Of a DNA stretch of 28,070 nt, positions 3,066 through 17,645 are shown in pieces; the stretch's first letter is position 1, and every line of letters begins with the position of its first letter. Made by a program: the position numbers and the translations under genes. Source of the stretch: a virus. The stretch lies in IMG/VR virus record IMGVR_UViG_3300020451_000062, positions 1-28,070 of that record. The stretch is one strand, 5' to 3'. The notes under the pieces were generated by a model, which worked only from the letters and a program-made list of their open reading frames with translations, had not been told where the DNA came from and did not search any database.

Positions 3066-6000
3066 CTAGTTTTCTGGTGGTCTATAAGTATTTCCTCTAG
3101 GGTATAGTAATCCTGTTCTAGGTCTCTTGTCTTTTAGAAATTCTCTACTTGAATTAAGATAACATGCATCTGTTATTGCATTACCATTTAAAAAATCATA
3201 ATGATCTATCTCTGCAAAGGCACCTGACGCTGTGTTTGCTGGTACTGCAATTTCATCAACTTCATCAAAGAATCTAGGAAATATTTGACCGTTATTAAGT
3301 AAAGCAAATGGTCTACCAGGAGAAATGTAAACAGTTGGATTGAGATATGTAAGTGTATAATTTAAAGATCCTGGAAGAGGTCCTTGAGTCCATATATGTG
3401 GTACTGGTGGGAAACCAATTGCTTTCTTATTGATTGTTTGATCACGCATCTCAACATTATCAAGAGACATAGTGTAGTTGAGTCTAGGAGGTGGTGTTTG
3501 GTCTGTCCACTGATGTGGTACTGGTGGAAACCCAATTGGTTTTTTATTAACTGCTTGGTCACGCATCTGAATATCGCTCATCCCAAAAGTATGGTTTCCA
3601 TATGCTTTTGTTCCATTCTGCATACTAGGATCATTAAGATGTGCGTTGCCTGGTTGGAAAGCAAGAGTCCAGTTTCCATCAATAGCAGGATTAACTTTCC
3701 AATACTTATCCAGTTCACTAGAACATTGATTAGTAAACTGAAAGTTTCCTGGAACTGCTGGAGAACCACCAGTGTGTGATCTTATATTATTAACGCCACT
3801 AGCTGTAAGAATAAAATTATATGTTTGTGCGTTACCCGTAGAAGTATCCGTTACTGTTACATTGAAAGATGTATCTTGAAAATAACTACTACTAGCAGAT
3901 GATTGAAGATATCCTGTGGATGTATTGAATATTAAATTGGTACCAATTAAACTATCACCACTAATAGTCCAAGGTCCTACATCAACTGTCTCTCCACCAG
4001 ATGTAACAGCACTTGAGTATCCTAGATTAATGTTTACAACAGATCCATGTGCAATCGGACTCTGACTGATTGTTCCTTGTGCTTGATCCCATGTAAATGT
4101 TTTCTCAACAAATGGGAAGATAGCACCATTGTTTACTGAGGAGGTAAATGTAACTGTTGTAGGATCGAAGTATCCAGCATCAACAGGAAGACCAGTACCA
4201 ACACCTGTACCAGTATTATTAGCTTCTTGTGCATCAGTTCTAGTGGTTAGAGATACACTTCCAAAATGAGGACCATCAGTTTCCTGATGCGTATCAGTAA
4301 TAATACCCATAGAAAATGGTCCACTACCACCAACATCAGTATTGGTTGATGTGAATACATTACCAGTACCAAGATCAATTGTTATACTATTTGCGAGAGC
4401 ATCTTCAGCAGTGATACCCCACCATTGTCTAAGTGCTTCGGTTAAATTAATATTACCTACGATGGTTGCTATAGGAGAAGGTGTTCTGATCTGTACTTTC
4501 TTTCCTACTTTTCCTATAAAATAACCAGCATCTGCTGGGTTAAATTTGACTACAAGTAGAGAAGATGCGTTAGTGGTACTAAATGGATTAGAAACAAGTT
4601 CTCTTTCATCCATCAGATTAAGAGGATAATTAGTACTCCTACCAGCATCTGTTCTATGTCCTGCATTAGTAGTACGAATCCAGTCCTTTGCTTTTTGTGG
4701 TAGATTACTAGTGGTAGCATCGTAACCATTATGCTCAAGCCATGTCGCTATGATACCAGCAACAATAGGTGTAGAGAAAGAAGTTCCTGAAATATTATCA
4801 TAGGTTGTACTACCACTTCCATAAGAAGTATTAGCACTCCATTCATAATCAGGACATACGATTCTTTGACCTGGAGCATAGACATCTACAGAGTTTCCAT
4901 AGTTAGAAAAGTCTGCAACATTATCACCAGGTTCAGTAGCACCAACAACAATCTTAGGTTGATCAAAATCCTCTGCATTAAATCTTAAATCTTTTGGTCC
5001 TCCAGTCCTAGCTCCAGTTTTAAATTTTGCTTGTAGAGGACCTAAGAATGTATCACTTGCTGATATAAATCCATTACCAGCAGAGCGACAAATAATAATA
5101 TTATTTGATCTAGAAACAGTGCTTTCAATCTCATCTAAAATTTCTAGTTCATTGTATGGATAGTCTGTACCAGAATCATTTAATTCAATTATAGGATTAC
5201 TTCCACTGGGAGTGGTAGCACCAAAAGAAGCGTTAATAATCGCTGGTCTATTATTACCTTTGTAGTAAGCACTACTAGGATTATTATGATCTATAACTGC
5301 TTGATATGCTGAAGCAAGATCAGAAAAGGTAGCACCCAGATTACTATTGAATGCTTTAAGTGAATAGATTCTTATATCCTTAGCAATTCCATATCTCCAT
5401 CCAGAAGCTAGAATTGCACAGTTAGTTCCATGTCCATTATCATCCTCATTAGTATTTCCAACACCACTGTAGTTACTTAACTCATATACTCTATAGTCTC
5501 CTTGTTCTGATGTACCAGTTAAACTACTTCTATTGTCTGGATCATATAATTCTGGATGAAGTGCTGCTGTTGAACCAGTAGGTCTACTCGCACCTCTAAC
5601 TCCACTATCAATAATATAAAGATCAACACCATCACCCGTTTGGGTATAAGTGTATTGATTATTAAGTGCTGATCTATTTTTCTTTGAAATTCTATCTAGA
5701 TGCCACGCATTTAATCTATAGCTGAAACTACCATGTCTTGCTGGAGATGATTGATATCTGTACATCCCAGGTTGATTAGGACAATAAGGATATAAAACAG
5801 GTGGAGTGTAATTACTAGTCTGAGGTGGACCTTGAAAACTATAATTTGATTGATGACTACTACTACCAGGTGCATAGTTACCAGCGTTCCAATTACTTCC
5901 TGTGTATTCTACACCACCATTCCATATACCATCAGGAGTTGTAGATAATCTCAGTGGATAATTAGTATTTGATGAGTCGTTTTGTCTAAAGTAAAATGTG

Positions 6001-6422
6001 TATCCTGATCCCCCAGCAATACTAATTCCTGGTTTGTACCAAGTGGACTGATCAAATGAGTATTCAAATACAGGTTGTCCGTCCCACTGAACAACACGGA
6101 ACCATCTATACTGACCACCAGCAGATGTAGCCCACGTTGTATCTTGACTTGCTTCTAAACTAACTTCTGTTTCTATATCTTCTACGATAACTTCTTCTTT
6201 TATAGGATCTAATTCAATAGTTGTATCCCAAAAACATCTATGTCCACAATCATTAACATTACCTTTTACTTGGTCAATATTTTCATCAGGAATATCAAAA
6301 CTTATTATACGAAAACTTTCAAGACTCTGATGAAACTGAGCATAAGGAACTCTCGCTTCAATAGAAGCACGAATCTCTTCGAGAGGAGAATTACCACACG
6401 CTTTTACTATTAACCTTTTCAT
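3066..6422 (-). CDS. Virion-type protein with subtilisin/proteinase-K-like (S8) protease domain
   Basis: An 1118-aa multidomain protein. Residues ~1-60 resemble an I9-type protease propeptide (short beta-alpha-beta pattern). Residues ~100-235 look like a degraded cupredoxin-like domain (Cys214, Met220 kept). Residues ~238-580 form an S8 peptidase domain with the whole catalytic set: Asp272 in IIDSG, His331 in NGHGT, oxyanion Asn450 in SAGN and Ser548 in GTSFSTP; the preceding WHLDRI also matches proteinase-K-type enzymes. After that come beta-rich regions, including an Ig-like stretch around 790-890, and two tandem 39-residue repeats near 940-1020. It lies among fibre genes, so it is probably a structural component. 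Whether the protease matures virion proteins, cuts itself or degrades host surface or matrix proteins cannot be told. An ATG lies 11 bases after the preceding gene. Confidence 0.9.
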   Translation of the reverse strand: MKRLIVKACGNSPLEEIRASIEARVPYAQFHQSLESFRIISFDIPDENIDQVKGNVNDCGHRCFWDTTIELDPIKEEVIVEDIETEVSLEASQDTTWATSAGGQYRWFRVVQWDGQPVFEYSFDQSTWYKPGISIAGGSGYTFYFRQNDSSNTNYPLRLSTTPDGIWNGGVEYTGSNWNAGNYAPGSSSHQSNYSFQGPPQTSNYTPPVLYPYCPNQPGMYRYQSSPARHGSFSYRLNAWHLDRISKKNRSALNNQYTYTQTGDGVDLYIIDSGVRGASRPTGSTAALHPELYDPDNRSSLTGTSEQGDYRVYELSNYSGVGNTNEDDNGHGTNCAILASGWRYGIAKDIRIYSLKAFNSNLGATFSDLASAYQAVIDHNNPSSAYYKGNNRPAIINASFGATTPSGSNPIIELNDSGTDYPYNELEILDEIESTVSRSNNIIICRSAGNGFISASDTFLGPLQAKFKTGARTGGPKDLRFNAEDFDQPKIVVGATEPGDNVADFSNYGNSVDVYAPGQRIVCPDYEWSANTSYGSGSTTYDNISGTSFSTPIVAGIIATWLEHNGYDATTSNLPQKAKDWIRTTNAGHRTDAGRSTNYPLNLMDERELVSNPFSTTNASSLLVVKFNPADAGYFIGKVGKKVQIRTPSPIATIVGNINLTEALRQWWGITAEDALANSITIDLGTGNVFTSTNTDVGGSGPFSMGIITDTHQETDGPHFGSVSLTTRTDAQEANNTGTGVGTGLPVDAGYFDPTTVTFTSSVNNGAIFPFVEKTFTWDQAQGTISQSPIAHGSVVNINLGYSSAVTSGGETVDVGPWTISGDSLIGTNLIFNTSTGYLQSSASSSYFQDTSFNVTVTDTSTGNAQTYNFILTASGVNNIRSHTGGSPAVPGNFQFTNQCSSELDKYWKVNPAIDGNWTLAFQPGNAHLNDPSMQNGTKAYGNHTFGMSDIQMRDQAVNKKPIGFPPVPHQWTDQTPPPRLNYTMSLDNVEMRDQTINKKAIGFPPVPHIWTQGPLPGSLNYTLTYLNPTVYISPGRPFALLNNGQIFPRFFDEVDEIAVPANTASGAFAEIDHYDFLNGNAITDACYLNSSREFLKDKRPRTGLLYPRGNTYRPPEN
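3382..3598 (-). repeat. Tandem ~117-base repeat inside the protease gene
   Basis: Two adjacent in-frame copies encode the shared pattern MRDQ.(V/I)NKK.IGFPPVPH.WT, once with AVNKKP and once with TINKKA, separated by about 39 codons. The copies are also similar at DNA level (for example TGTGGTACTGGTGG in both, read on the plus strand), which suggests a fairly recent duplication. Confidence 0.8.
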
Positions 6423-6433
6423 CGTACCCCCGA

Positions 6434-8518
6434 TTAGGTGGTTCTAGCACAGAATAGAATTCCTCTAGTTCTGCCATCTTGATTGTATGATCCTGTAATT
6501 ATAGTGTAAATTTCTGATGTCCCAACAGTAATAGTATCACCTTGCTGAATGTTTGCTGATGGAGTCGCAACATCAAAATCAATCATAGCAAAATCATTAG
6601 GTAGATAGTATGGTACTGGAGCTATGTTTATACTTAAAGGAAGACCTTTAATAACTGCGTTAAAGTTAGTAGCATTAGATAACTGTTGTCGTGCATAAAA
6701 TTGACTGTTACTTTTCAATGCTACATCACCACCAATACTCCTATTTGTATGAGATAAATTAGATCTGGTGTAGATATTAACATAAGCAGTGCTTCCTGAT
6801 TTAGTACTCAATGATGTAGTTCCATAAATTGTATCAGTATATGGAGTACCCTCCGCACTACCATTTCCACTTAAACTTTCATAAGGTAAGAATCCACACT
6901 CAGCAGATCTCACACTTAGTTCATAATTATTAACAACTTGATGAGGACCACCTAAGAAACTTCTAAACCTGATGTGTGGAGCATCTTCATTAGTAGATGG
7001 TGAAATAACAGTAACACCACCTAACCACAACTCATCATAATTAAATAGTGCGGGACTTGTATAGTCATGAACAAACCAAGTCATAAAACTATTATCTCTT
7101 AACTTAGTTGATGATAAGTTAGGTTGCTTAAAAGAATAAACAACAAAGTTTGGATCAATGGAAGACTGATAAGAAATTAAATCAAGAGAGTATGCATTGT
7201 ATGCATTATAATCTGCAATTCTTTGCGCATGATCATCATATCGCATTGTAGCGAAAGATGGAACAGGACTATTAGCAATAGTAGAATCATTAAAACGTTT
7301 ATCACCATTAGGTTCATATGGTATGTCGAATTGAGGAGTTCCTTTAAAACTAGCATCGTACATCTGATTTGCTATATCATCAGCTGATACCGCTAGGTCA
7401 TTAGACCAATCATAAAGACTACCATGAGCAGTACGTGAATTACTTAAGACAGTATAATTACTAGGAAGAGTTGATGTCTGTGGACGATAACCAGATCCTG
7501 TAGAAATAGAAAGTTCTGTTCTACCATTTGTATCTGATTCAAAAGAATATGATTGATAAGTAATTCCAAATTTTTTACCTGCCTCAATTTCTCTCCTACA
7601 TACACCCCAAGGTGACACTGCGCTTTGTCGATTTTGCTTATCAAAAAATGAAGAAGTTGTACCGTAAGATTTAGCAACAACATTAGAACTAGAAGCAGCA
7701 ACTACGGTAACTGTGTGTATAGAAGTAAGTGAAGTGGATTTTAAATAATATGTTCCTGCTTGTCCAGGAGAAGGTTTCCATTTTAAATACCAACTATCAT
7801 TTTGAGTGCTCCATTGCCATGCAGCTTGGTTAACAACATTCGCTGGCATCCAACCATCTAACCAACCAGTAGTATAATTAGAAATAGTACCACTTGCTAG
7901 TGTGTTTCCTAAAGAAGTATCATTATTAGGATCATACCAAAGGAGGTATGTGTATTGAGTCATCGCTTTTAATATAAGAGTATCACCTTCAGCGATAGTA
8001 ATGTTTGCTGCTGAGGATATATTTGTAGATGCGATTGAACCATTAGCATCAATACCAGTCAAATTATTAGAAGAGTCATATTCTAGATTGTAGGTAGTAC
8101 CACCACTAGCATATCCTTCAACGAAAACAGTTACATTAATATCTTGTACACCATTAGAACCAGTACCACCAAAATCTAAATCATTTAAAGTCAGAACATC
8201 TCCATTTACGTATCCATAACCTTGACGATTAACTTTAACATATCTTACTTGTCCACCATAAGAACCTATTTCAAAACTTGCACCAGTTCCTGATCCTGTT
8301 GAAGAAGATGGGAAAACATCATACCAATAATCCCACTCATTACTACCTGAACGATCAGTATTTTGTCCACCAGTAGTCCAAGATTTAATACCACCAACTA
8401 ACCCAGTAACAGGACCCATGTGTGCTCCAACTGTGGTAAGTGCGTCTTCGATCTGATCGATAACATCACTTCTCGACCACCCGATTGGTTTACTATGTGT
8501 AGTTGCGGTTACAGTCAT
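6434..8518 (-). CDS. Large virion-type protein of unknown role (694 aa)
   Basis: No known enzymatic domain is recognised. The product is rich in Ser, Thr, Gly, Asn and Tyr, with no membrane segment, as is typical of tail or fibre structural proteins. The N-terminus (about residues 1-50) is not like the anchors of the neighbouring fibres. Residues ~90-130 carry a beta-type motif with GYGYVNGDVLTLNDLDFGG, a kind of Gly-rich repeat common in marine phage structural proteins. Residues ~175-270 (from ITIAEGDTLILKA to AGTYYLKS) have the layout of a cupredoxin-like fold but without copper ligands; this is tentative. The gene lies 3 bases downstream of the 814-aa fibre gene and 11 bases before the protease gene, so the three are probably co-expressed late genes. 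Confidence 0.75.
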   Translation of the reverse strand: MTVTATTHSKPIGWSRSDVIDQIEDALTTVGAHMGPVTGLVGGIKSWTTGGQNTDRSGSNEWDYWYDVFPSSSTGSGTGASFEIGSYGGQVRYVKVNRQGYGYVNGDVLTLNDLDFGGTGSNGVQDINVTVFVEGYASGGTTYNLEYDSSNNLTGIDANGSIASTNISSAANITIAEGDTLILKAMTQYTYLLWYDPNNDTSLGNTLASGTISNYTTGWLDGWMPANVVNQAAWQWSTQNDSWYLKWKPSPGQAGTYYLKSTSLTSIHTVTVVAASSSNVVAKSYGTTSSFFDKQNRQSAVSPWGVCRREIEAGKKFGITYQSYSFESDTNGRTELSISTGSGYRPQTSTLPSNYTVLSNSRTAHGSLYDWSNDLAVSADDIANQMYDASFKGTPQFDIPYEPNGDKRFNDSTIANSPVPSFATMRYDDHAQRIADYNAYNAYSLDLISYQSSIDPNFVVYSFKQPNLSSTKLRDNSFMTWFVHDYTSPALFNYDELWLGGVTVISPSTNEDAPHIRFRSFLGGPHQVVNNYELSVRSAECGFLPYESLSGNGSAEGTPYTDTIYGTTSLSTKSGSTAYVNIYTRSNLSHTNRSIGGDVALKSNSQFYARQQLSNATNFNAVIKGLPLSINIAPVPYYLPNDFAMIDFDVATPSANIQQGDTITVGTSEIYTIITGSYNQDGRTRGILFCARTT

Positions 8519-8521
8519 TTG

Positions 8522-10966
8522 TTAATTCTCCAGTTGCAATATTGTAAGAGTTGCAGTGATTGTTGTGTTCGCACCAGAAAGATTTTCTACAGTTACATAA
8601 ATGTTGGTACTAACTGGTGATTCAGTATTACCACCAACAGTAAATGGTGTTATAATTTGTTGTTGATTCTGACCTGAGGTGATTACTTCAGCGAGTACAC
8701 CAGAACCAGGATCAGGGTCTTCACCTACGTTCCTATTTACGTCGTTAGTTCTTGCTTGGCTACTACTATATATGCGACACCATGCTGCATCAGATAAGTT
8801 AATTTGCATCAATACATATGATTTGAATCCAACTAAATCTAACGTATCATAAGTTCCAGGTGCTAAGAGAATTGTGGTTCCACTTACAGTTGTTCTACTA
8901 GAAAGAGTACCACCTCCTCCTCCACCGCCACCAGTCGCACTAAGAACACCAGCAGCAGTAACAGCAAGACCTGATCCAATAATTACACCACCCAATTGAG
9001 AAGTTGTAGCAGGAACAATATTAGCAATACCTGTAGTCTGATCTATATTAATTGTGGTACCGTTCTTAATACCACCAAGAGATGTTGGTGATGCAATAGC
9101 GATAGCAGATGCTGAAGTGCTAAGAATTCCAGAAGAATCAATACTTAATCCAGTTCCAACTTTAACTCCTCCAAGAACAGTAGCAGATGCAGTTGGAAGA
9201 GTTACACTAGCAATTCCAGTGCTACTATCGATCGCTAATCCAGAACCAATCTTAATACCACCTAATACAGTAGTAGAAGCAACGGGAAGAGATTGAACAT
9301 TGGAACTAAGAACACCACTAGCAGTGATAGAAAGACCAGCTCCAATCATTACACCACCCAACGTTCCATTAGTTGCAACAGGCAATGTATATCCACTAGG
9401 AGCAGCACTAATCTGCCCGTTCGACGCCATGGTAATGCTAGTTCCGTCTATTCTAACGCCACCTAATACAGTTGTAGATGCTTGAGGTAGTGTATAGAAA
9501 CTAGCAGGTTTATTAAGAATTTGTGATAGACCTGATGCAGAATTCCAATCAGCATTTACTGGTTGAACACTATTGAAAGTAATTCTATTGTTAGCAGGTT
9601 CATGTGTTAATGTCGTACCACCTAGAGCAAGAATCTGATAACTAGATGTTGTACCATCCGTAGCGGTAAGAGTAACTGTAGCTTCGTTACTTGCTAAGGT
9701 AGTTCCTACAGAAAGAGTATAGTTATTTAAGTTATAATAATTAGTTCCATCATTTGTCCACTCCCATTTATCAGTAGCTTCATTCCAACGTAAGACTGTA
9801 TCAGTTGACGTGCCTCTATCAATTCTGATTGATCCATTTTGTGATGGAGTTCCTGTTGTACCATCATTAATAACAATCTCATTGTTAGATACGCTGAGAG
9901 TATTAACGTTAGTGTTAGTGGTTGTTCCCTGTACAAGTAGGTTACCAGTAACTGTGAGGTCACCAACAGATAAGTTATTAGATGTAGTACCACCTCTGCC
10001 TGTAATAGTATCAAGAGTATCAGACTCAGCAGTTAAATATGTTGGAGTAAAATTTTCCCATTGTGATGAAGATGCATTGTACTTAATGAGATCTCCTCCA
10101 GTCAAACTAGCTAAAGTTACATCAGTGAGATCAGGCAATGCAACCTGAGTTAAATATCCAGCAGCACCATGATCACCCCATCCGTATGCAGCATTCCATT
10201 CTGATAGTTTTGTTAATGTAATACTACCAGCAGGTGAAGCAGTAAATACAGGATCAACTTCTGATGCAGCTGCAGCATTTCCTGGCTCCCATTTACCAGC
10301 AGTAGAATCCCAGATGAGTGCTTGTCCGTTTGTTGGTGCTGCTGATGCTGTATCAACATCACTGAAAGTATTGATAGGAATACTGGTAAGATCTCCAGCA
10401 ACTAGATATCCATTAACACTATGATCTCCCCAGTTGTATGCTGCATTCCATTGAGTAGATCCAGAAGATCCATTACCTGTAGTGATACCTCCAGTGAATG
10501 TTGCATCAGTTGAATTAGTAAAGTTAGCAAGACCACCTACAGTTAAATTATTTACTACTACATTTGGATTACCAGATAGTCCAGTCGAACTACCAGAAAT
10601 ATTTGCACCAGTAATCAATGCTGTAGATGGATTGTATGTAAGAGTATCGTCTGCAAATGTTTCTACATTACCAGTAGCAGCAGATCCAAGAATCAAAGGA
10701 AGAGTAAGATTATCACTTCCTTTTGTTGTTACGTTAATAACATTATTTAATTCGTTTAACCATTCAGATGTACCATCATATCTAATGACTTGATCTGTTG
10801 TTAAAGAAGCTAGTGTTACGTCTGTTAGACCACCAAGAGTAGTTGATCCACCTCCACCACCAGCAGGAGAAAGAGATACCCAAGAGGTTCCATCCCACTC
10901 CCAGGTAATACCTGCTGCAGTGTGTGTAGCTCCTGTTGAAGGATTCGATGGGAATGAAATAGCCAT
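8522..10966 (-). CDS. Modular tail fibre-like protein with LGG repeats
   Basis: An 814-aa fibre. The N-terminus (MAISFPSNPSTG then WEWDGTSWV, residues 1-31) is shared with the 528-aa fibre and is probably an anchor to the tail or another fibre. Next come a DLTDVTLASLT module, two WNAAY.WGDH..GYL motifs (about residues 175-275), a GTPSQNG/RWNEATDKWEW module (~370-410) and six tandem ~30-residue units of the form LP.A..T.LGG..IG.GL.I...G (about 495-680). A nine-glycine hinge follows. The last ~115 residues (from GFKSYVLMQI to TILQLEN) form a C-terminal domain of a kind frequent in marine phage fibres, likely the receptor-facing tip. Fibre assignment is firm; the receptor is unknown. An AATAAATA motif at 10972-10979 is too close to the ATG to be a convincing promoter. 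Confidence 0.88.
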   Translation of the reverse strand: MAISFPSNPSTGATHTAAGITWEWDGTSWVSLSPAGGGGGSTTLGGLTDVTLASLTTDQVIRYDGTSEWLNELNNVINVTTKGSDNLTLPLILGSAATGNVETFADDTLTYNPSTALITGANISGSSTGLSGNPNVVVNNLTVGGLANFTNSTDATFTGGITTGNGSSGSTQWNAAYNWGDHSVNGYLVAGDLTSIPINTFSDVDTASAAPTNGQALIWDSTAGKWEPGNAAAASEVDPVFTASPAGSITLTKLSEWNAAYGWGDHGAAGYLTQVALPDLTDVTLASLTGGDLIKYNASSSQWENFTPTYLTAESDTLDTITGRGGTTSNNLSVGDLTVTGNLLVQGTTTNTNVNTLSVSNNEIVINDGTTGTPSQNGSIRIDRGTSTDTVLRWNEATDKWEWTNDGTNYYNLNNYTLSVGTTLASNEATVTLTATDGTTSSYQILALGGTTLTHEPANNRITFNSVQPVNADWNSASGLSQILNKPASFYTLPQASTTVLGGVRIDGTSITMASNGQISAAPSGYTLPVATNGTLGGVMIGAGLSITASGVLSSNVQSLPVASTTVLGGIKIGSGLAIDSSTGIASVTLPTASATVLGGVKVGTGLSIDSSGILSTSASAIAIASPTSLGGIKNGTTINIDQTTGIANIVPATTSQLGGVIIGSGLAVTAAGVLSATGGGGGGGGTLSSRTTVSGTTILLAPGTYDTLDLVGFKSYVLMQINLSDAAWCRIYSSSQARTNDVNRNVGEDPDPGSGVLAEVITSGQNQQQIITPFTVGGNTESPVSTNIYVTVENLSGANTTITATLTILQLEN
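8933..9492 (-). repeat. Six tandem fibre-shaft repeats (LGG units)
   Basis: Six imperfect in-frame units of about 27-35 codons encode LP.A..T.LGG(V/I).IG.GL.I...G.L.. . The best-matching units are the third and fourth (TTVLGGIKIGSGLAIDSS and ATVLGGVKVGTGLSIDSS). Such units probably build a trimeric beta-rich shaft and may change in copy number by recombination. Confidence 0.8.
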
Positions 10967-10978
10967 AAAGATATTTAT

Positions 10979-12565
10979 TTAATGCTTAATAATGAAAACC
11001 ATCGCATAATATGGTGGTAAGTTGTTGTGTGCTTGGTCTCCACCAGCACTTCCAGTTTGAACAACGTTAAGATTACAATCATTGTTACTTGCTGGCCAAG
11101 GACGATAACCCTGATCGACCGATGCATCTTGACGATCCCAAGAGTGAGAGTGTGAAGGCATTTGATCTACTGTTAAGGTCACTGTTGCTTCACCACCAGT
11201 AGCACCAGCAGAATAAGTGGAACCAGCACCAACAATAAACCTATTTCTTAAATCAGGAGTGTATTGTCCAACTATTGCTGCGAGAGCACCATAAGAAGCT
11301 GTTGTTGTACCATCACATAACAACCAACCTGCAGGTGCTGTAGATCCAGCATACATCATGATTGCACCAACAGGAGCAGCTTCAGTAACTCGACTATCTT
11401 TTATGAATGAACTACTAGCAGAACTCCATCTCACACCGTCTGCGTCAGCAAGACCAGTAGTATCTGTAGTTACAACTGCTTTGCCTTCATAGGTAAGCAC
11501 ACCATTAGGAGCACCAAGAGAGAATGATTGTGGAGGGTTGCTATCATTAGTAAATTTAATACTATTATCACTTAAGAATAGATGTCTTACTTTTTTATCT
11601 GCACTACCAATATCATAGGTAGCGTTTGTTGTAGGTAATAAATGAAAATCATACTGACCCATCAAAGATGTAACATCAGCATCACCATATGCTGACGCCA
11701 TTCCAGAATAAGTAGAACCATCATTAGTGAACTCCCACTGATCTGAAGTTTCATTCCAACGAATTTCTACGTTAGCAGATGTACCTCTTTCAATTGCAAG
11801 TCCACCATTTTGTGATGGAGTACCAGTTTCATCACTGTTAAGAGTTAAAATATTATCTCCAATATTAACTGTATTACTATTGACTGTGGTTGTCGTTCCA
11901 TTGACTGTTAGGTTACTACATGTAAAGTCTCCTACTGTTGTTGCTAAAGAAGTTGTATTCCCTGCAGTTAATACTTCAGTTAATGTTGGTGTGTTACCAG
12001 TTAAATCAGGAGCAACCTCCCATGAAGCACCATTGTACTTCAGAATATATCCAACCTGAGCACCATTGACTGCATCTACATCACTAAGATCATTAAGAGC
12101 AAGTGACTGCTGAGAAGTTAGAACATTTATAGTTCCAGACATATTAGGGTGTGATGTACACTGATAGTACAATGTATCAGGTGCATTCATTGGAACAACA
12201 AATGTGAGATCTGATCCATTACCAGCGTCATTGTTTGTTACACCACTATTATATGCTGTACCACCACCTGCTTGAGGACCAGTGGATTGAATTCTAAAAG
12301 GATGTCCACCTGATCTATTTTTAAAAACGTATGACTGACCTCTTATCAAATATAAAGTTGGATCCTCAGCATTTGTAGGGAATCCTTCACCAGAGAATAT
12401 GTAATGTGTGTTTGCTGTTTGTGTAAGAGTCCACGAAATTACTGGTTGCCCAGGTATATCAGTAGTATTACTTGTTACCCAAGATGTTCCATCCCAAGTC
12501 CATGTGTTACCACCAGATGTGAACACTTGATTTGAAGTAGGAGTATCGGGAAAATTTATTGCCAT
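10979..12565 (-). CDS. Tail fibre with plastocyanin-like domain and C-terminal tail collar domain
   Basis: A 528-aa protein. Residues 1-30 (MAINFPDTPT, then WTWDGTSWV) match the N-terminal anchor of the 814-aa fibre. Residues ~42-150 look like a cupredoxin domain: GGHPFRI gives His88, and LYYQCTSHPNMSGTINV gives Cys136, His139 and Met142, a full set of type-1 copper ligand types. A DLSDVDAVNGAQVGYILKYNGASWE-type module follows, then a GTPSQNG/RWNETSDQWEF module also found in the 814-aa fibre. Residues 400-528 are a phage tail collar domain (GWLLCDG, DLRNRFIVGAG, MPSHSHS, ending LPPYYAMVFIIKH), which often forms fibre tips and includes an HSH metal-type motif. The fibre role is well supported; copper binding is inference. 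The gene follows the 123-aa gene by 5 bases. Confidence 0.9.
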   Translation of the reverse strand: MAINFPDTPTSNQVFTSGGNTWTWDGTSWVTSNTTDIPGQPVISWTLTQTANTHYIFSGEGFPTNAEDPTLYLIRGQSYVFKNRSGGHPFRIQSTGPQAGGGTAYNSGVTNNDAGNGSDLTFVVPMNAPDTLYYQCTSHPNMSGTINVLTSQQSLALNDLSDVDAVNGAQVGYILKYNGASWEVAPDLTGNTPTLTEVLTAGNTTSLATTVGDFTCSNLTVNGTTTTVNSNTVNIGDNILTLNSDETGTPSQNGGLAIERGTSANVEIRWNETSDQWEFTNDGSTYSGMASAYGDADVTSLMGQYDFHLLPTTNATYDIGSADKKVRHLFLSDNSIKFTNDSNPPQSFSLGAPNGVLTYEGKAVVTTDTTGLADADGVRWSSASSSFIKDSRVTEAAPVGAIMMYAGSTAPAGWLLCDGTTTASYGALAAIVGQYTPDLRNRFIVGAGSTYSAGATGGEATVTLTVDQMPSHSHSWDRQDASVDQGYRPWPASNNDCNLNVVQTGSAGGDQAHNNLPPYYAMVFIIKH

Positions 12566-12570
12566 GTTAC

Positions 12571-12942
12571 TTAACTAGGTTTTGGATATTTTGTTTTAAC
12601 AGGGTCTACAATATCAGTCTTCCATTTATCAATACCATGATGATAGATATAATCTAGCTGCTCACCGAAACTTGGATACTCTTCATGTCTTTGCTGTTGA
12701 TATGCAACTTGAGTTGCAGCTGCTTTTAGTTCAGTATCTTTTGCTGAAACTTGATCCCAAGTTACTGGTATCAAACTCACATCATTAGATTCTATATTGT
12801 TACCATTTGCTGTACCAGTTACAACACTATAAGCTGATATAAAACTAGCACTATCAGTTACATCACCATTCAATTTTAAAACATACTGATCATCACTTAT
12901 TCCAAGTGCTAGTAATGCCTCTTGTAGTTCTATAATATTCAT
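12571..12942 (-). CDS. Small protein between fibre genes, possible fibre assembly factor
   Basis: A 123-aa soluble protein. The N-terminal ~40 residues (LQEALLALGISDDQYVLKLNG) look compactly folded. The middle is Ala/Gln-rich and helical (ELKAAATQVAYQQQRHEEYP), and the end has an EEYPSFGEQLDYIYHHGIDKW motif with a KTKYPKPS tail. That YPS..EQLD....G...W....KYP pattern recurs in small proteins encoded beside phage tail fibre genes. No catalytic motif is seen. Its ATG overlaps the TAA of the 1567-aa fibre by one base (TAATG), indicating translational coupling, and it precedes the 528-aa fibre gene by 5 bases. A chaperone or minor structural role is inference from position only. Confidence 0.8.
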   Translation of the reverse strand: MNIIELQEALLALGISDDQYVLKLNGDVTDSASFISAYSVVTGTANGNNIESNDVSLIPVTWDQVSAKDTELKAAATQVAYQQQRHEEYPSFGEQLDYIYHHGIDKWKTDIVDPVKTKYPKPS

Positions 12943-15900
12943 TATCCTGCCTCCATTAAGACCATGTTACCTTGAGAAACTGAACCGCTATTTGTATTAG
13001 AATTACGAGATGCATATAATTTATATGTAACGAGTGTATCTACAGCAGGTTGATCCCAATAAGAAATTGAGGACATTCCATCTTGATATTTAGTAGCACT
13101 CACGTTATCTCTTTGAGAGATAGCAGTTCCAACAACAAGTTCTGTTTCTACTCCGCTAACTGTACGAGTCAACTTATGTTGTCCGAGAGGAGCTGAGTAA
13201 AGATTACCACCAGTATTTGCAATTGTAAACAACATGCTACACATAACAACAATCTTACGGGTATTAGTAGTTGGAGTTATATCTACACTGAATATTTCAG
13301 TATAACCTGTGTTTAGACTAACAGAATCACTAGTGCCTTGATTAGTTCCATTTGATTGAGCAACAGCGGTAGAACCATCCTCCACGTTTATCATGGTACG
13401 GATCTGCGCAGGTGTTAACTCTTCAATATCCCCCGCACCAGTCGTTACTCTACCTAATATTTTGTCTGCTGCTGATACATTTTGAATCTTTGCATAAGTT
13501 ACTGCTCCATCTGCAAAAACTCTAGTTGTACCAGACTGAGTAAAAGTACCCGTAGCTATATGTTCATGCGTAAAGTCACGCATTGCATTTACATTAGCTC
13601 CATTTAAACTAGAAGATGAAGTTAAGTATCCAACAGCATCATGATCACCCCAACCATATGCAGTGTTAGCGTTAGAAAGATCTGGAGGAGTATATGTAAA
13701 GACACCAGTTCCATTATTATATGATAGTGCAGCAGTTCCAGCAGATGCTTGAACAACAGATAGATCTGTTAGGGCAATACCACCTGCAGCAGATAGATCA
13801 TCTGCCATCTCCCAAGAAGAACCATTGTACTTAAGAATTTTACCATTAGCAGCACCAGTTGTTGCATCTACATCACTAAGATCATTAAGAGTAGATGGTA
13901 CAGTTGGAAGAGTAACACTCATCACACCTGTAGAAGAATTGTAAGCAAGATCTCCACCAGCACTTATAGAAGCTCGTGCTCTATCGGTTGTATGATAAAG
14001 ATTACTTGATCCCTCTGATACATCATCGGTAGTAGCAGAAGAAAGACTATAACCTGCAGGTAAAGCATCAACCCATTGGTTACTAGTACCATCTTCATAT
14101 CTGATTTTTAATTTAGCTTCGTCAGACTTGAACCACAAGTCTCCGTTACTAGGTGATCCAGGTGCAGAATCACCAACAGATACACTAGCACCTCCACCAC
14201 CACCTCCAGATACAGTAGACCATGTGACGCCACCCGATCCATTACTGGTTAAAACCTGTCCACTAGTCCCGTTAGAAGTTGGATAAGTTAAACCACCAGC
14301 AACTAATCCATCAGTGTACACAAATCTCCATTTCTTAGTTGTGCTACCAAGATCATATGTTCCATCAGTAAATGGTAGTGCAGTTCCATTCAAACTTAAT
14401 CCTGCAAAAGTAGGAGAATAAGTTGCATCGAAACTAAACTGTGTTCCTACTAGATTGAGACCATTTCCAGCAGTGTATGTTGTATCAGTATCGACCTGTG
14501 CTATCCAAGCATAGTCAGTACCGTTCCAACTTAAAATTTGATTTGATGTAGCACTACCAATATTAAGATGAGAATCTACATCAGCATTGGCGTAAGATCC
14601 ACTACCACCACCGCCGCCACCTCCAACAGGATTGGCGTCAACCCATACACTAGAGTAAAGGATCTTTAATCTTCCTTTATCTGACTCCCACCATAAATCA
14701 CCTGAGCTAGGATTTGATGGAGGATCATCAGAGATAGTTACGTTAGCACCACCTGCTCCACCTGTTAGATCTGCTGCTATCTCCCAAGAACTTCCGTTAT
14801 ATTTGATAATGCTACCCACAGATGCACCAGTAACATCAACATCTGTTAATGCACCTAAGGTAGTAGCACCACTCGTTCCAGTTTGATCTGCTACCCAAAC
14901 AAAATCTGTACCATTCCAACTAAGAATCTGACCTGCTGTAGCACTAGAAGTATTGAGGTGTGTGCTTACATCAGAGTCACCATAAGATGAAGTAACACCA
15001 TTAGTCCAGTTACTTCCATTGTAATAAAGAACTTGACCTGAAGTTGGAGTTGAAATAGTAACATCAGTAAGATCATCTATATCAGTTACAGTTGATCCAC
15101 CTCCTCCAGATACAGTAGACCATGTAATATTTCCTGTGCCATCACTGGTCAAAACTTGACCTGAAGTCCCGTTGGTGTTTGGATAAAGCAAACCACCAGC
15201 AGTTAGTCTTCCAACTGAGATATTATTGATAGTAGTATTACCTCTACCAGTTACACTATCAAGAGTATCTACTTCTGCTGTTAGGTAACCTGCAGAAGCA
15301 TGGTTTCCCCAACTGTATGATTGATTCCAGTTTGCTTTATCTGTGTTTGTTGCTTGTAAATATCCAACAATAGAATGATCACCCCAGTTATATGCTGAGT
15401 TCCAATTAGAAATATTTGCACTGGTAATACCTGCTGAAGGTGATGCAGAAAATATTGGATCTGTTTCAGTTGTAATAAAATTGGTAATATCAGGTGGAGT
15501 AAATGTAAGTAAGTTTTGTGCAGAGTTAAATGTTAGACTACCAGAACCAGAAGGAATGGTGTTGTTGTTAACAACCATCGAACTATTCTGCTGCATACCA
15601 CCACCAGTAGTAACAGTAGTAGGAACCCATCTATTACCATTAGAACTAAAACTTAGAACTTGTCCATCACCAGGGTGTCCTGCTTGAACATCTAATAGAT
15701 CTCCAAGTTGTGTGATACCACCTATAGGAATCCATTCACCGTCTTGATACATTTCAAGTCGGTTATTAACATTATTATAAACTACAGATCCATTTAAAAC
15801 ATTTAGATAATCACGTTCACTTATAGTTTTACTTGGGAACTTGATGTAATCAAGTGCTTGTAGTTCTGTAATTGTTGCACCAGTAGATACAATATTATCT

Positions 15901-17645
15901 GATACAAGATATCCTTTAAGTGTTAACTCACCTTGAATAGGTTCAAACTTAATCTTATCTGAACCAGCGAGTCCTCCATTGTTATTATATTGTATTGAGT
16001 AGTCACTACCACCAGCAACAATACCACCAGAACCTGCTGCTCCTGTGTTTGGTGCAGTAGAAATATTTGTGATTCTACCACTTGGATCAACAGAGATAAC
16101 AGGAATGACTCCAGAACTACCATAAACTCCATTAGGAACTCCAGTTAAATTTGATAGTTGTGCTCCAGAACCAGTGTATGTTGTAGCATTAACAGTACCA
16201 GTAGCATTAAGACCAGTAAAAGTAGGTATTGCACTTGTAGCAAGGTCTTGAGCTACAGAGAACTCCAGTCTTGTTCCAGTTCTTGTTAGAGTAACACCAG
16301 TACCAGCAGATAAAACTACCTCTTCAGAATATCCAGTGCTATCTGTTAAACGAATACTTTTTCTGTTTGCTTCCTGTTGGTTCTCAACAGATAGATTATA
16401 TGATGTGTTGTCTGCATTGATAGTTAATCTTTTATTAACATTATCCAACGTGACTAAAGCACTACCAGTACCAATGAATCTAACAATATCATTAGAGTCT
16501 ACAGATGATGTAACACTGTTATCACCAATACTCCATCCATTATATGTTGGAGGTATAGCAGCCCAAGATGTATTTTGTCCATCAGTTGTTAGATACTTAC
16601 TAGCATTTGCTGCTTGTGCTGGTAGAAAAACATTCAGTGCTTCATTAGCAGTGGTTTTGCCTGTACCACCATATGCAATATCAATAGTTTGTGCTTCCCA
16701 TCTACCAGCAGATAGAACACCAACAGATTCTAAACTAGATGCTCTAATAACATTTCCAAGTCCTGTGCTAGTGATGACATCAGTACCATTAATTTTATAA
16801 GTTCTTCCACTAACAATATTAAAATGCTCAGAAGAAGTCCATGAGTCATCAGTATTACTCCACAGAATAGTATGAGGAGAATCACCTTTAAGTTTAATTC
16901 CACCACCATCTGCTACAGCATCTGTAGGAATTACAACATCATTTAAGTTAATAAATTTGTCTTGAGAAGATATAGTAACTGTATTACTTGTAGTAGTTGT
17001 ACCTTGTACAATTAAATTTCCACTAACAGTTACTTGCTGAAATGTAACAGGATCAGTTGGACCTACAGGTTGTCCAATTTTAATTTTATTATCACCAGTG
17101 ACTGTAACGCCACTCTCTCCAGTGTATGTTGTGTTGTCGTCGTTAACATTGATAGTAAATGTTCTACCAGACTGGGTGATTGTCGCTGCACCAGTTCCGA
17201 TTAGATTAACATCGCCATCAGTATAATTCTGTCCACCAGAACCTATTCTTGTAACAGTATTTGTATCAGTGAATGAAGAATCAATAGTAATTCTTCCACT
17301 GCTTCTTGTAAGAGAAACATTATTGCCTGCTACAAGAACAACATCGGTGTATCCAGTTCCAGATCCACCAGCAGACAATCTAATTACTTTATCTGTAGAA
17401 GGGTTAGCACCATCAATAGTGCTGAGTGTGTAAGTAGTATTATTATCTGTGAGGGGTACATTACTCCAACCCACTCCAGTAGTAGTCCTAGAAAGAACTT
17501 GTCCAGTCAATCCAGTGTCACCATTCAGAGAAATGATGCCTTCAATTAATAAAGATTTAGTAGTGGGAACTCGAAGACCTTCTACTGCTAGAGTAGGTCC
17601 ACTATTACTTTGATTGATGAGTTCATCTACTCTAATTTTAGACAT
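12942..17645 (-). CDS. Very large modular tail fibre (1567 aa)
   Basis: This is the longest gene in the window. The N-terminus MSKIRVDELINQ is shared with the 1039-aa fibre (MSRARVDQIVNQ) and is probably an anchor. The body is a mosaic of fibre modules: GYT.VVL.AG..V.LTR..G.I repeats near residues 90-180, three WGDH/WGNH units (two near 750-785, one near 1330), several DLTDVD....G...KYNGSSWE units, paired SGQVLTS..TWSTVSGGGG units, and DLW..SD...LKI linkers. Poly-glycine hinges occur in several places. Around residues 1385-1420 a DKILGRVTTGAGDIEELTPA motif precedes a ~110-residue C-terminal beta domain (RKIVVMCSMLFTI to MVLMEAG) that is likely the tip. No enzymatic domain is seen. A late promoter motif lies 27 bases upstream. 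Confidence 0.9.
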   Translation of the reverse strand: MSKIRVDELINQSNSGPTLAVEGLRVPTTKSLLIEGIISLNGDTGLTGQVLSRTTTGVGWSNVPLTDNNTTYTLSTIDGANPSTDKVIRLSAGGSGTGYTDVVLVAGNNVSLTRSSGRITIDSSFTDTNTVTRIGSGGQNYTDGDVNLIGTGAATITQSGRTFTINVNDDNTTYTGESGVTVTGDNKIKIGQPVGPTDPVTFQQVTVSGNLIVQGTTTTSNTVTISSQDKFINLNDVVIPTDAVADGGGIKLKGDSPHTILWSNTDDSWTSSEHFNIVSGRTYKINGTDVITSTGLGNVIRASSLESVGVLSAGRWEAQTIDIAYGGTGKTTANEALNVFLPAQAANASKYLTTDGQNTSWAAIPPTYNGWSIGDNSVTSSVDSNDIVRFIGTGSALVTLDNVNKRLTINADNTSYNLSVENQQEANRKSIRLTDSTGYSEEVVLSAGTGVTLTRTGTRLEFSVAQDLATSAIPTFTGLNATGTVNATTYTGSGAQLSNLTGVPNGVYGSSGVIPVISVDPSGRITNISTAPNTGAAGSGGIVAGGSDYSIQYNNNGGLAGSDKIKFEPIQGELTLKGYLVSDNIVSTGATITELQALDYIKFPSKTISERDYLNVLNGSVVYNNVNNRLEMYQDGEWIPIGGITQLGDLLDVQAGHPGDGQVLSFSSNGNRWVPTTVTTGGGMQQNSSMVVNNNTIPSGSGSLTFNSAQNLLTFTPPDITNFITTETDPIFSASPSAGITSANISNWNSAYNWGDHSIVGYLQATNTDKANWNQSYSWGNHASAGYLTAEVDTLDSVTGRGNTTINNISVGRLTAGGLLYPNTNGTSGQVLTSDGTGNITWSTVSGGGGSTVTDIDDLTDVTISTPTSGQVLYYNGSNWTNGVTSSYGDSDVSTHLNTSSATAGQILSWNGTDFVWVADQTGTSGATTLGALTDVDVTGASVGSIIKYNGSSWEIAADLTGGAGGANVTISDDPPSNPSSGDLWWESDKGRLKILYSSVWVDANPVGGGGGGGSGSYANADVDSHLNIGSATSNQILSWNGTDYAWIAQVDTDTTYTAGNGLNLVGTQFSFDATYSPTFAGLSLNGTALPFTDGTYDLGSTTKKWRFVYTDGLVAGGLTYPTSNGTSGQVLTSNGSGGVTWSTVSGGGGGGASVSVGDSAPGSPSNGDLWFKSDEAKLKIRYEDGTSNQWVDALPAGYSLSSATTDDVSEGSSNLYHTTDRARASISAGGDLAYNSSTGVMSVTLPTVPSTLNDLSDVDATTGAANGKILKYNGSSWEMADDLSAAGGIALTDLSVVQASAGTAALSYNNGTGVFTYTPPDLSNANTAYGWGDHDAVGYLTSSSSLNGANVNAMRDFTHEHIATGTFTQSGTTRVFADGAVTYAKIQNVSAADKILGRVTTGAGDIEELTPAQIRTMINVEDGSTAVAQSNGTNQGTSDSVSLNTGYTEIFSVDITPTTNTRKIVVMCSMLFTIANTGGNLYSAPLGQHKLTRTVSGVETELVVGTAISQRDNVSATKYQDGMSSISYWDQPAVDTLVTYKLYASRNSNTNSGSVSQGNMVLMEAG
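14203..14300 (-). repeat. Fibre module repeat, copy 1 (900 bases from copy 2)
   Basis: This stretch encodes the SGQVLTS..TWSTVSGGGG module. It shares a perfect 23-base run (14203-14225) with 15103-15125, and similarity continues for about 100 bases, always at an offset of exactly 900 bases. This indicates a duplicated 300-codon period or repeated module within the 1567-aa fibre gene. Confidence 0.7.
15103..15200 (-). repeat. Fibre module repeat, copy 2
   Basis: Second copy of the SGQVLTS..TWSTVSGGGG module in the 1567-aa fibre gene, aligned without gaps to 14203-14300 at a 900-base offset. It differs mainly at silent or conservative positions (NITWST here, GVTWST in the other copy). Confidence 0.7.

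Follow-up and report, generated by a model that had tools for sequence, protein, structure and literature searches.

A subtilisin-type protease joined to a tail module in T4-like cyanophages: a candidate self-inhibited enzyme of the phage tail

The enzymes of phage tails are usually known as cutters of sugars or peptidoglycan. What, then, might a subtilisin-type serine protease do at the end of a tail-fibre cassette? The question is raised by a gene in a 28,070-nucleotide stretch of viral DNA (IMG/VR record IMGVR_UViG_3300020451_000062, positions 1 to 28,070; the whole stretch is called the window below), which derives from a T4-like cyanophage, as its T4-type fibre genes and its genes for transaldolase and ribonucleotide reductase subunits show. 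The minus-strand open reading frame (ORF) at 3066-6422 encodes a protein of 1118 amino acids and 121.9 kDa. A first-pass annotation, made from the letters of the window alone, had described a subtilisin-type protease over 4670-6422; that interval holds residues 1 to about 585, and 533 further residues follow. We consider that the chances are about even that this protein is a tail-borne subtilase of a T4-like cyanophage, which processes itself at about residues 74-92 and cuts host surface proteins at adsorption. The gene and its parts, in the order of the protein, are as follows.

3066..6422, minus strand: whole protease gene, PHROG 27200 / T4-GC 519 type (phrog_27200, E=1.1e-194 over the N-terminal 650 residues)
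6204..6422, minus strand: putative I9-like inhibitory propeptide, residues 1-73, 8.4 kDa (modelled fold and zymogen superposition)
6141..6203, minus strand: linker, residues 74-94, proposed autoprocessing region (low model confidence and low conservation)
5739..6140, minus strand: putative tail-fibre/baseplate module of cupredoxin-like type, residues 95-228, without the copper ligands in this copy (profile matches and family alignment)
4623..5711, minus strand: proteinase K-type S8 catalytic domain, residues 238-600 (Pfam, sequence and structural matches)
5607..5609, minus strand: catalytic Asp272 (motif position and family alignment)
5430..5432, minus strand: catalytic His331 (motif position and family alignment)
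5073..5075, minus strand: oxyanion-hole Asn450 (motif position and family alignment)
4779..4781, minus strand: catalytic Ser548 (motif position and family alignment)
3783..4472, minus strand: conserved beta-rich or immunoglobulin (Ig)-like region, residues 651-880 (family profile and strands in the model)
3069..3782, minus strand: C-terminal region of the short form, residues 881-1118, with a two-copy repeat (sequence comparison)

The protease gene is real, intact and conserved. Peptidase_S8 (PF00082) is the sole Pfam domain in the 1118-residue protein and matches residues 265-586 with E=1.7e-30, at 106.8 bits versus a cut-off of 21.8. Asp272, His331, Asn450 and Ser548, the set that the first-pass annotation had named, are intact at the positions claimed, and each lies within its correct S8 motif (DSG, HGT, SAGNG and GTS, respectively). 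Relatives were sought in 50,697 phage records and occur in seven cyanophage records, two each for P-HM1, P-HM2 and MED4-213 and one for S-BM3; five further phage records match by the S8 domain only. Profile scans of viral contigs contributed the best 80 of 148 confirmed relatives and, in a second scan, the best 80 of 136. Of the 120 loci pooled, 40 that were identical to or contained in others were dropped, and the remaining 80 viral-contig sequences, together with the window and four isolate phages, form the family set (n=85). All four residues are kept in 84 of these 85 distinct members. The exception, L013 (L013:2949-4871), has an in-frame TGA just after the His motif, beyond which the residues are still readable; another broken protease frame, with a C-terminal frameshift, is found at L041:812-3901, and these breaks reflect either sequencing error or genuine loss. 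The S8 domain is under purifying selection, though not of an extreme kind, with ratios of nonsynonymous to synonymous substitution (dN/dS, Nei-Gojobori) of 0.42 against L001, 0.37 against L002 and 0.55 against L003. A chance match or a pseudogene is ruled out by the Pfam score, the conservation of the four residues and dN/dS.

By sequence, the nearest solved structure is aqualysin I (4dzt, 9.7e-22), which has the W-x-L-D-R-I start of the catalytic domain in common with the window protein. A 650-residue model was built from a 75-row alignment (A5) and has a mean predicted local distance difference test score (pLDDT) of 71.4. The subtilase fold of this model is matched by 4dzt (Z 26.1, 256 residues, 2.7 A, 31% identity) and by 5wsl_A (Z 26.2). 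Other assignments were rejected: NCBIfam matches to a dentilisin-type proteinase PrtP and to a type VII mycosin are weak and far under the curated cut-offs. Nor is the protein a T4 gp21 (S77) prohead protease, since S8 is its only Pfam match and the relative P-HM2 encodes gp21 separately; the earlier view that it has no tie to such an enzyme is upheld. In all six records searched, each treated as a fragment, no second S8 copy was present on the same contig.

The N-terminus of the protein is predicted to carry the inhibitor of this enzyme. Residues 1-73 were modelled twice, with a beta-alpha-beta-beta-alpha-beta fold and a pLDDT of about 81-91. In sixteen of the 50 structural matches listed, all sixteen propeptide-bearing, the alignment starts at model residue 1 or 3 and runs on across the protease, so that the model docks the N-terminal domain in zymogen geometry. 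When compared with the 650-residue model, pro-subtilisin E (3whi_A) gave Z 29.8 over 323 residues at 3.0 A, ProN-Tk-SP (3afg_A) Z 26.6 over 321 residues at 2.8 A, and PCSK9 with its prodomain (5vlh_A) Z 29.0 over 306 residues at 2.7 A. A search of PDB sequences with the profile of the N-terminal domain returned one match, at E=0.049. Judging by the model, this domain would do the job of an I9 inhibitor while standing outside the Pfam I9 family, and the propeptide of the first-pass annotation stands for its fold, docked as in zymogens, and falls short in that Pfam gives no I9 match.

If the domain is an inhibitor, where would it be released? The linker at residues 74-94 is the least conserved stretch of the protein (identical at 2/20 positions to L002, 4/20 to L003 and 4/21 to P-HM2), and the domain preceding it shares 54 of 73 residues with L002. 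In 10 of the 50 structural matches listed, all ten of them mature enzymes, the chain start falls opposite model residues 92-94. On this placement, maturation would occur ahead of the tail module and leave a chain of about 111-113 kDa; it is tentative because other mature enzymes among the matches listed align only from about residue 234-238. Cleavage after the I9-like domain, if it occurs, would make the tail module the new N-terminus. The best 19-residue hydropathy value starting in the first 30 residues is 0.28, and neither a signal peptide nor a hydrophobic N-terminus is apparent by hydropathy, no dedicated predictor having been run. Lacking such a segment, the protein would reach surface proteins only via the virion or after lysis.

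The domain that separates the putative propeptide from the protease points to the tail. In a comparison with PHROGs that used the window copy and those of two relatives, P-HM2 and L018, the better of the two relatives matched tail-fibre families phrog_30742 (4.7e-18) and phrog_693 (3.3e-16), the baseplate-wedge family phrog_708 (4.2e-7) and the tail-fibre connector phrog_677 (0.001). A hidden Markov model (HMM) of the module also matches a fibre gene of the window itself, at 10979-12565, with an independent E-value (iE) of 2.7e-8. Judged by these profiles, the domain is related to tail-fibre/baseplate modules of T4-like cyanophages. The fusion of a zymogen-type subtilase with a tail module is unusual. 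A cupredoxin-like domain is inserted inside the protease of S-BM3, which indicates that the module is mobile.

The first-pass annotation had called this domain cupredoxin-like, a name that is fair for the family and no longer describes the metal site of the window copy. A His-Cys-His-Met set, which we take to be the type 1 copper (cupredoxin) ligand pattern, is kept in 79 of the 85 family members; the window and L001 have YCQM at these positions, L003 has FTSL, L064 and L066 have HNTM, and S-BM3 is unaligned there. With the copper ligands lost from the window copy, copper would be dispensable for the function of the window's protein. Cupredoxin entries are absent from the structural matches listed for either model, lists that the protease fills, so that the fold is not excluded by them.

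Beyond the protease, residues 651-880 are conserved in the family. This supports in part the Ig-like domain proposed earlier, although the region of the window copy has no Pfam match. The tandem repeats noted in the first pass amount to two 70-nucleotide copies, at 3388-3457 and 3505-3574, with 81% identity and a start-to-start spacing of 117 nucleotides; Tandem Repeats Finder gives just two trivial arrays. The C-terminal region has no match in the phage records or in PHROGs, and a PDB search with it gave a best E of 0.96. A scan of viral contigs with this region confirmed none, yet L001 carries it, and that scan is therefore uninformative.

The setting of the gene bears on its role. In the window the protease ends a fibre cassette, which bears out the fibre-gene neighbourhood that had been described, and its neighbours are the following.

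6434..8518, minus strand: gene next to the protease on its upstream side, 694 aa, homologous to S-SCSM1 gp140 (full-length homology)
8522..10966, minus strand: tail-fibre gene, 814 aa (phrog_9729, 1.3e-31)
10979..12565, minus strand: tail-fibre/collar gene, 528 aa, carrying the protease's tail module (Pfam Collar, 1.7e-10; phrog_677; module HMM, iE as above)
12942..17645, minus strand: large tail fibre, 1567 aa

The full-length S-SCSM1 homologue of the 694-residue neighbour, gp140, carries the label 'virion protein', and mass spectrometry of S-SCSM1 is reported to have identified 45 proteins of the virion (PMC9602691). Downstream context was scored in the 53 of the 80 relatives whose ORF is closed and followed by 700 nucleotides or more, and upstream context in 64. 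Downstream lies the neck gene gp13 in 48/53, a fibre cassette of the window type in 3/53 and, in 2/53 (L013 and L041), a broken frame; upstream, the arrangement is of the P-HM2 type in 61/64 and of the window type in 3/64. When 14 proteins of the window were compared with 13 neighbourhood proteins of P-HM2, the matches were confined to two, the protease and the fibre gene that bears the module, each of which matched the P-HM2 protease. The two structural neighbourhoods, with no other shared proteins among those compared, leave no common fibre substrate visible and speak against a dedicated one, and the maturation of fibres, one of the roles suggested by the first-pass annotation, is not borne out.

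Two further features of this region were observed. A peptide deformylase-like gene (574-1014; phrog_2890, 3e-47) lies close to the fibre cassette. In L001:345-5393, a 1682-residue fibre consists of residues 1-1287 of the window's 1567-residue fibre with the window's 528-residue collar protein at its C-terminus, a fusion suggestive of a fibre tip that was exchanged or displaced.

We propose that the gene encodes a T4-like cyanophage tail protein into which a proteinase K/aqualysin-type subtilase has been incorporated. Its I9-like domain would fold onto the active site, keeping the enzyme silent inside the infected cell, and self-cleavage of the flexible linker, near residues 74-92, would free an inhibitor of about 8 kDa. 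The remaining protein of about 111-113 kDa would begin with the tail-fibre/baseplate module, followed by the protease and the Ig-like domains. The module may anchor the protease to the apparatus of the tail or fibres; during adsorption the protease would cut cyanobacterial surface proteins, as tailspike depolymerases cut sugars.

Several results weigh against this proposal. Residues 1-78, searched alone, match no Pfam family at E≤10, and hence not Inhibitor_I9; the N-terminus of S-BM3 has no significant match to a family profile built without S-BM3 (iE 0.18); and residues 80-101, the proposed cleavage zone, have a pLDDT below 50. Beyond its own protease family the module of the window copy matches only phrog_708, and weakly (0.0017), the strong matches being those of its relatives. 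Most relatives adjoin neck/tail-completion genes, a position that would also suit a role in assembly. The domain architecture has good support; presence in the virion, like catalytic activity, self-cleavage and its site, and a host-surface substrate, is what we infer for the family. No virion proteome of any family member was found in the literature covered.

The protease could instead serve assembly alone, cutting fibre, neck or tail proteins of the phage during virion maturation with no need for action on the host. Its gene always lies beside structural genes, be it gp13 or, in the few cases counted above, the fibre cassette, and phage peptidases often process virion proteins (PMC7824862). 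Yet the two neighbourhoods share no fibre partners among the proteins compared, the distribution is patchy (seven cyanophage records among 50,697), and head maturation in P-HM2 has its own gp21, and we regard an assembly protease as rather unlikely. The fold might also have been retained as a binding scaffold that is catalytically silent or at most cuts itself; PCSK9, in which the prodomain remains attached, would be the parallel. The predicted seat of the I9-like domain on the active site and the PCSK9 chains among the best structural matches listed would fit such a scaffold. We hold it to be improbable, since the closest sequences are those of active secreted enzymes, aqualysin I among them, and all but one family member keep the four catalytic residues, though self-cleavage alone could explain that conservation.

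Two other explanations place the enzyme off the virion, or do not need it there. An enzyme made late and freed at lysis might digest host debris or decoy receptors, whether on the virion or not; a self-inhibited zymogen suits late activation, and for a protein with no apparent signal peptide lysis or the virion would be the only ways out of the cell. The fused tail module would be needless for a soluble enzyme, however, and a role in release or clearance carries little probability. A protease that acts on host proteins during infection, and is no part of the virion, would work in the cytoplasm once its inhibitor was removed, and no time of expression was found for it in what was covered of the P-HM2 transcriptome paper; the location among structural genes and the tail module both stand against takeover of this kind, which we consider very improbable. 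Compared with these, a tail-borne enzyme that acts on the host surface at adsorption remains the reading that we prefer.

A broader form of this proposal is possible, and we advance it tentatively. A clade of T4-like marine cyanophages may carry a proteolytic counterpart of the tailspike, which would be tail-mounted and self-inhibited, freed from its inhibitor only after assembly, and able to strip or remodel host surface proteins at adsorption; it would have moved as a cassette between neck-proximal and fibre positions, and S-BM3 would have added a second putative hydrolase domain, YHYH, to the chain. The range of what phages can do at the cell surface would be enlarged by a zymogen-type protease with a tail module attached. 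The Prochlorococcus phages with the long form of the protein (P-HM1, P-HM2 and MED4-213) have MED4 as host, which makes the role testable in culture, and such work could throw light on the surface proteins that restrict infection of highly abundant marine photosynthetic cells.

The family has received little notice. In one sentence Sullivan et al. 2010 (PMC3037559) name 'an S8 peptidase (T4-GC518)'; they place it among 70 genes that are common to P-HM1 and P-HM2 and that no other cyanophage sequenced by that time possessed, and suggest for such genes a possible link with the infection of MED4. The gene at L005:20001-25484 is T4-GC518 in that text and T4-GC 519 in GenBank, an apparent numbering slip. 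In the literature that was covered, a partial sample and so weak evidence, no virion or tail subtilase is described, the sentence above alone names a cyanophage S8 peptidase, and the architecture, inhibitor and tail module of the S8 protein are undescribed. A search of a viral structure library returned mainly the MED4-213 homologue. As for sources outside these phages, a 7-kb contig in a Red Sea Dehalococcoidia metagenome-assembled genome (L134) encodes a protease domain with 56% identity; it is the one genome-contig match, most simply a misbinned (cyano)phage contig, and a cellular source was rejected. Contigs filed as Acinetobacter phage MD-2021a (L011) were set aside as phage evidence, for their S8 gene lies amid bacterial metabolic and transporter genes, iscS and pheP among them, and they look like host DNA.

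How, finally, does the window protein compare with known systems? The prohead protease gp21 of T4 is a phage-coded serine protease of a different family, and P-HM2 has gp21 besides its S8 protein. Aqualysin I and proteinase K are secreted enzymes whose inhibitor lies directly before the catalytic domain. They share the catalytic fold and the W-x-L-D-R-I start with the window protein, which differs in having no apparent signal peptide and a tail module between inhibitor and protease. The protein of P-HM1, P-HM2 and MED4-213 (PHROG 27200 / T4-GC 519) has the same order of I9-like domain, tail module, S8 and Ig-like region, with 42-44% identity over residues 1-652; unlike the window protein, it is 1827-1840 residues long and has both an additional cupredoxin-like insert and an extended C-terminal part, and its gene, annotated as hypothetical, precedes gp13, whereas that of the window lies in the fibre cassette. 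The S8 peptidase of S-BM3 (WDS61281, 2648 aa) has the same motif after the Asp, GASRPTG..AALHP, and its gene lies between tail genes: gp8 precedes it at a short distance and a tail-fibre gene follows. In S-BM3 the N-terminal region is joined directly to the protease, cupredoxin-like domains stand inside and after the protease, and a YHYH domain is added (L006:14737-22683; E=2.7e-37), giving two putative hydrolases in one tail-region protein; YHYH is a predicted tail-associated metal-dependent hydrolase in PMC7824862. Lastly, the jumbo phages Atu_ph07 (gp329) and Phosso carry, as here, their S8 domain within a long protein that also has Ig domains and is encoded close to tail genes. In Atu_ph07, gp329 is two genes from gp327, a tail fibre in the paper's and the RefSeq numbering alike, and that paper states that most virion proteins found by mass spectrometry fall in clusters that include CDS 284-329 (PMC6102473). 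The S8 domains of these two phages are 26-28% identical to that of the window and the tail module was not found in their proteins by the module HMM, and they probably represent an independent acquisition.

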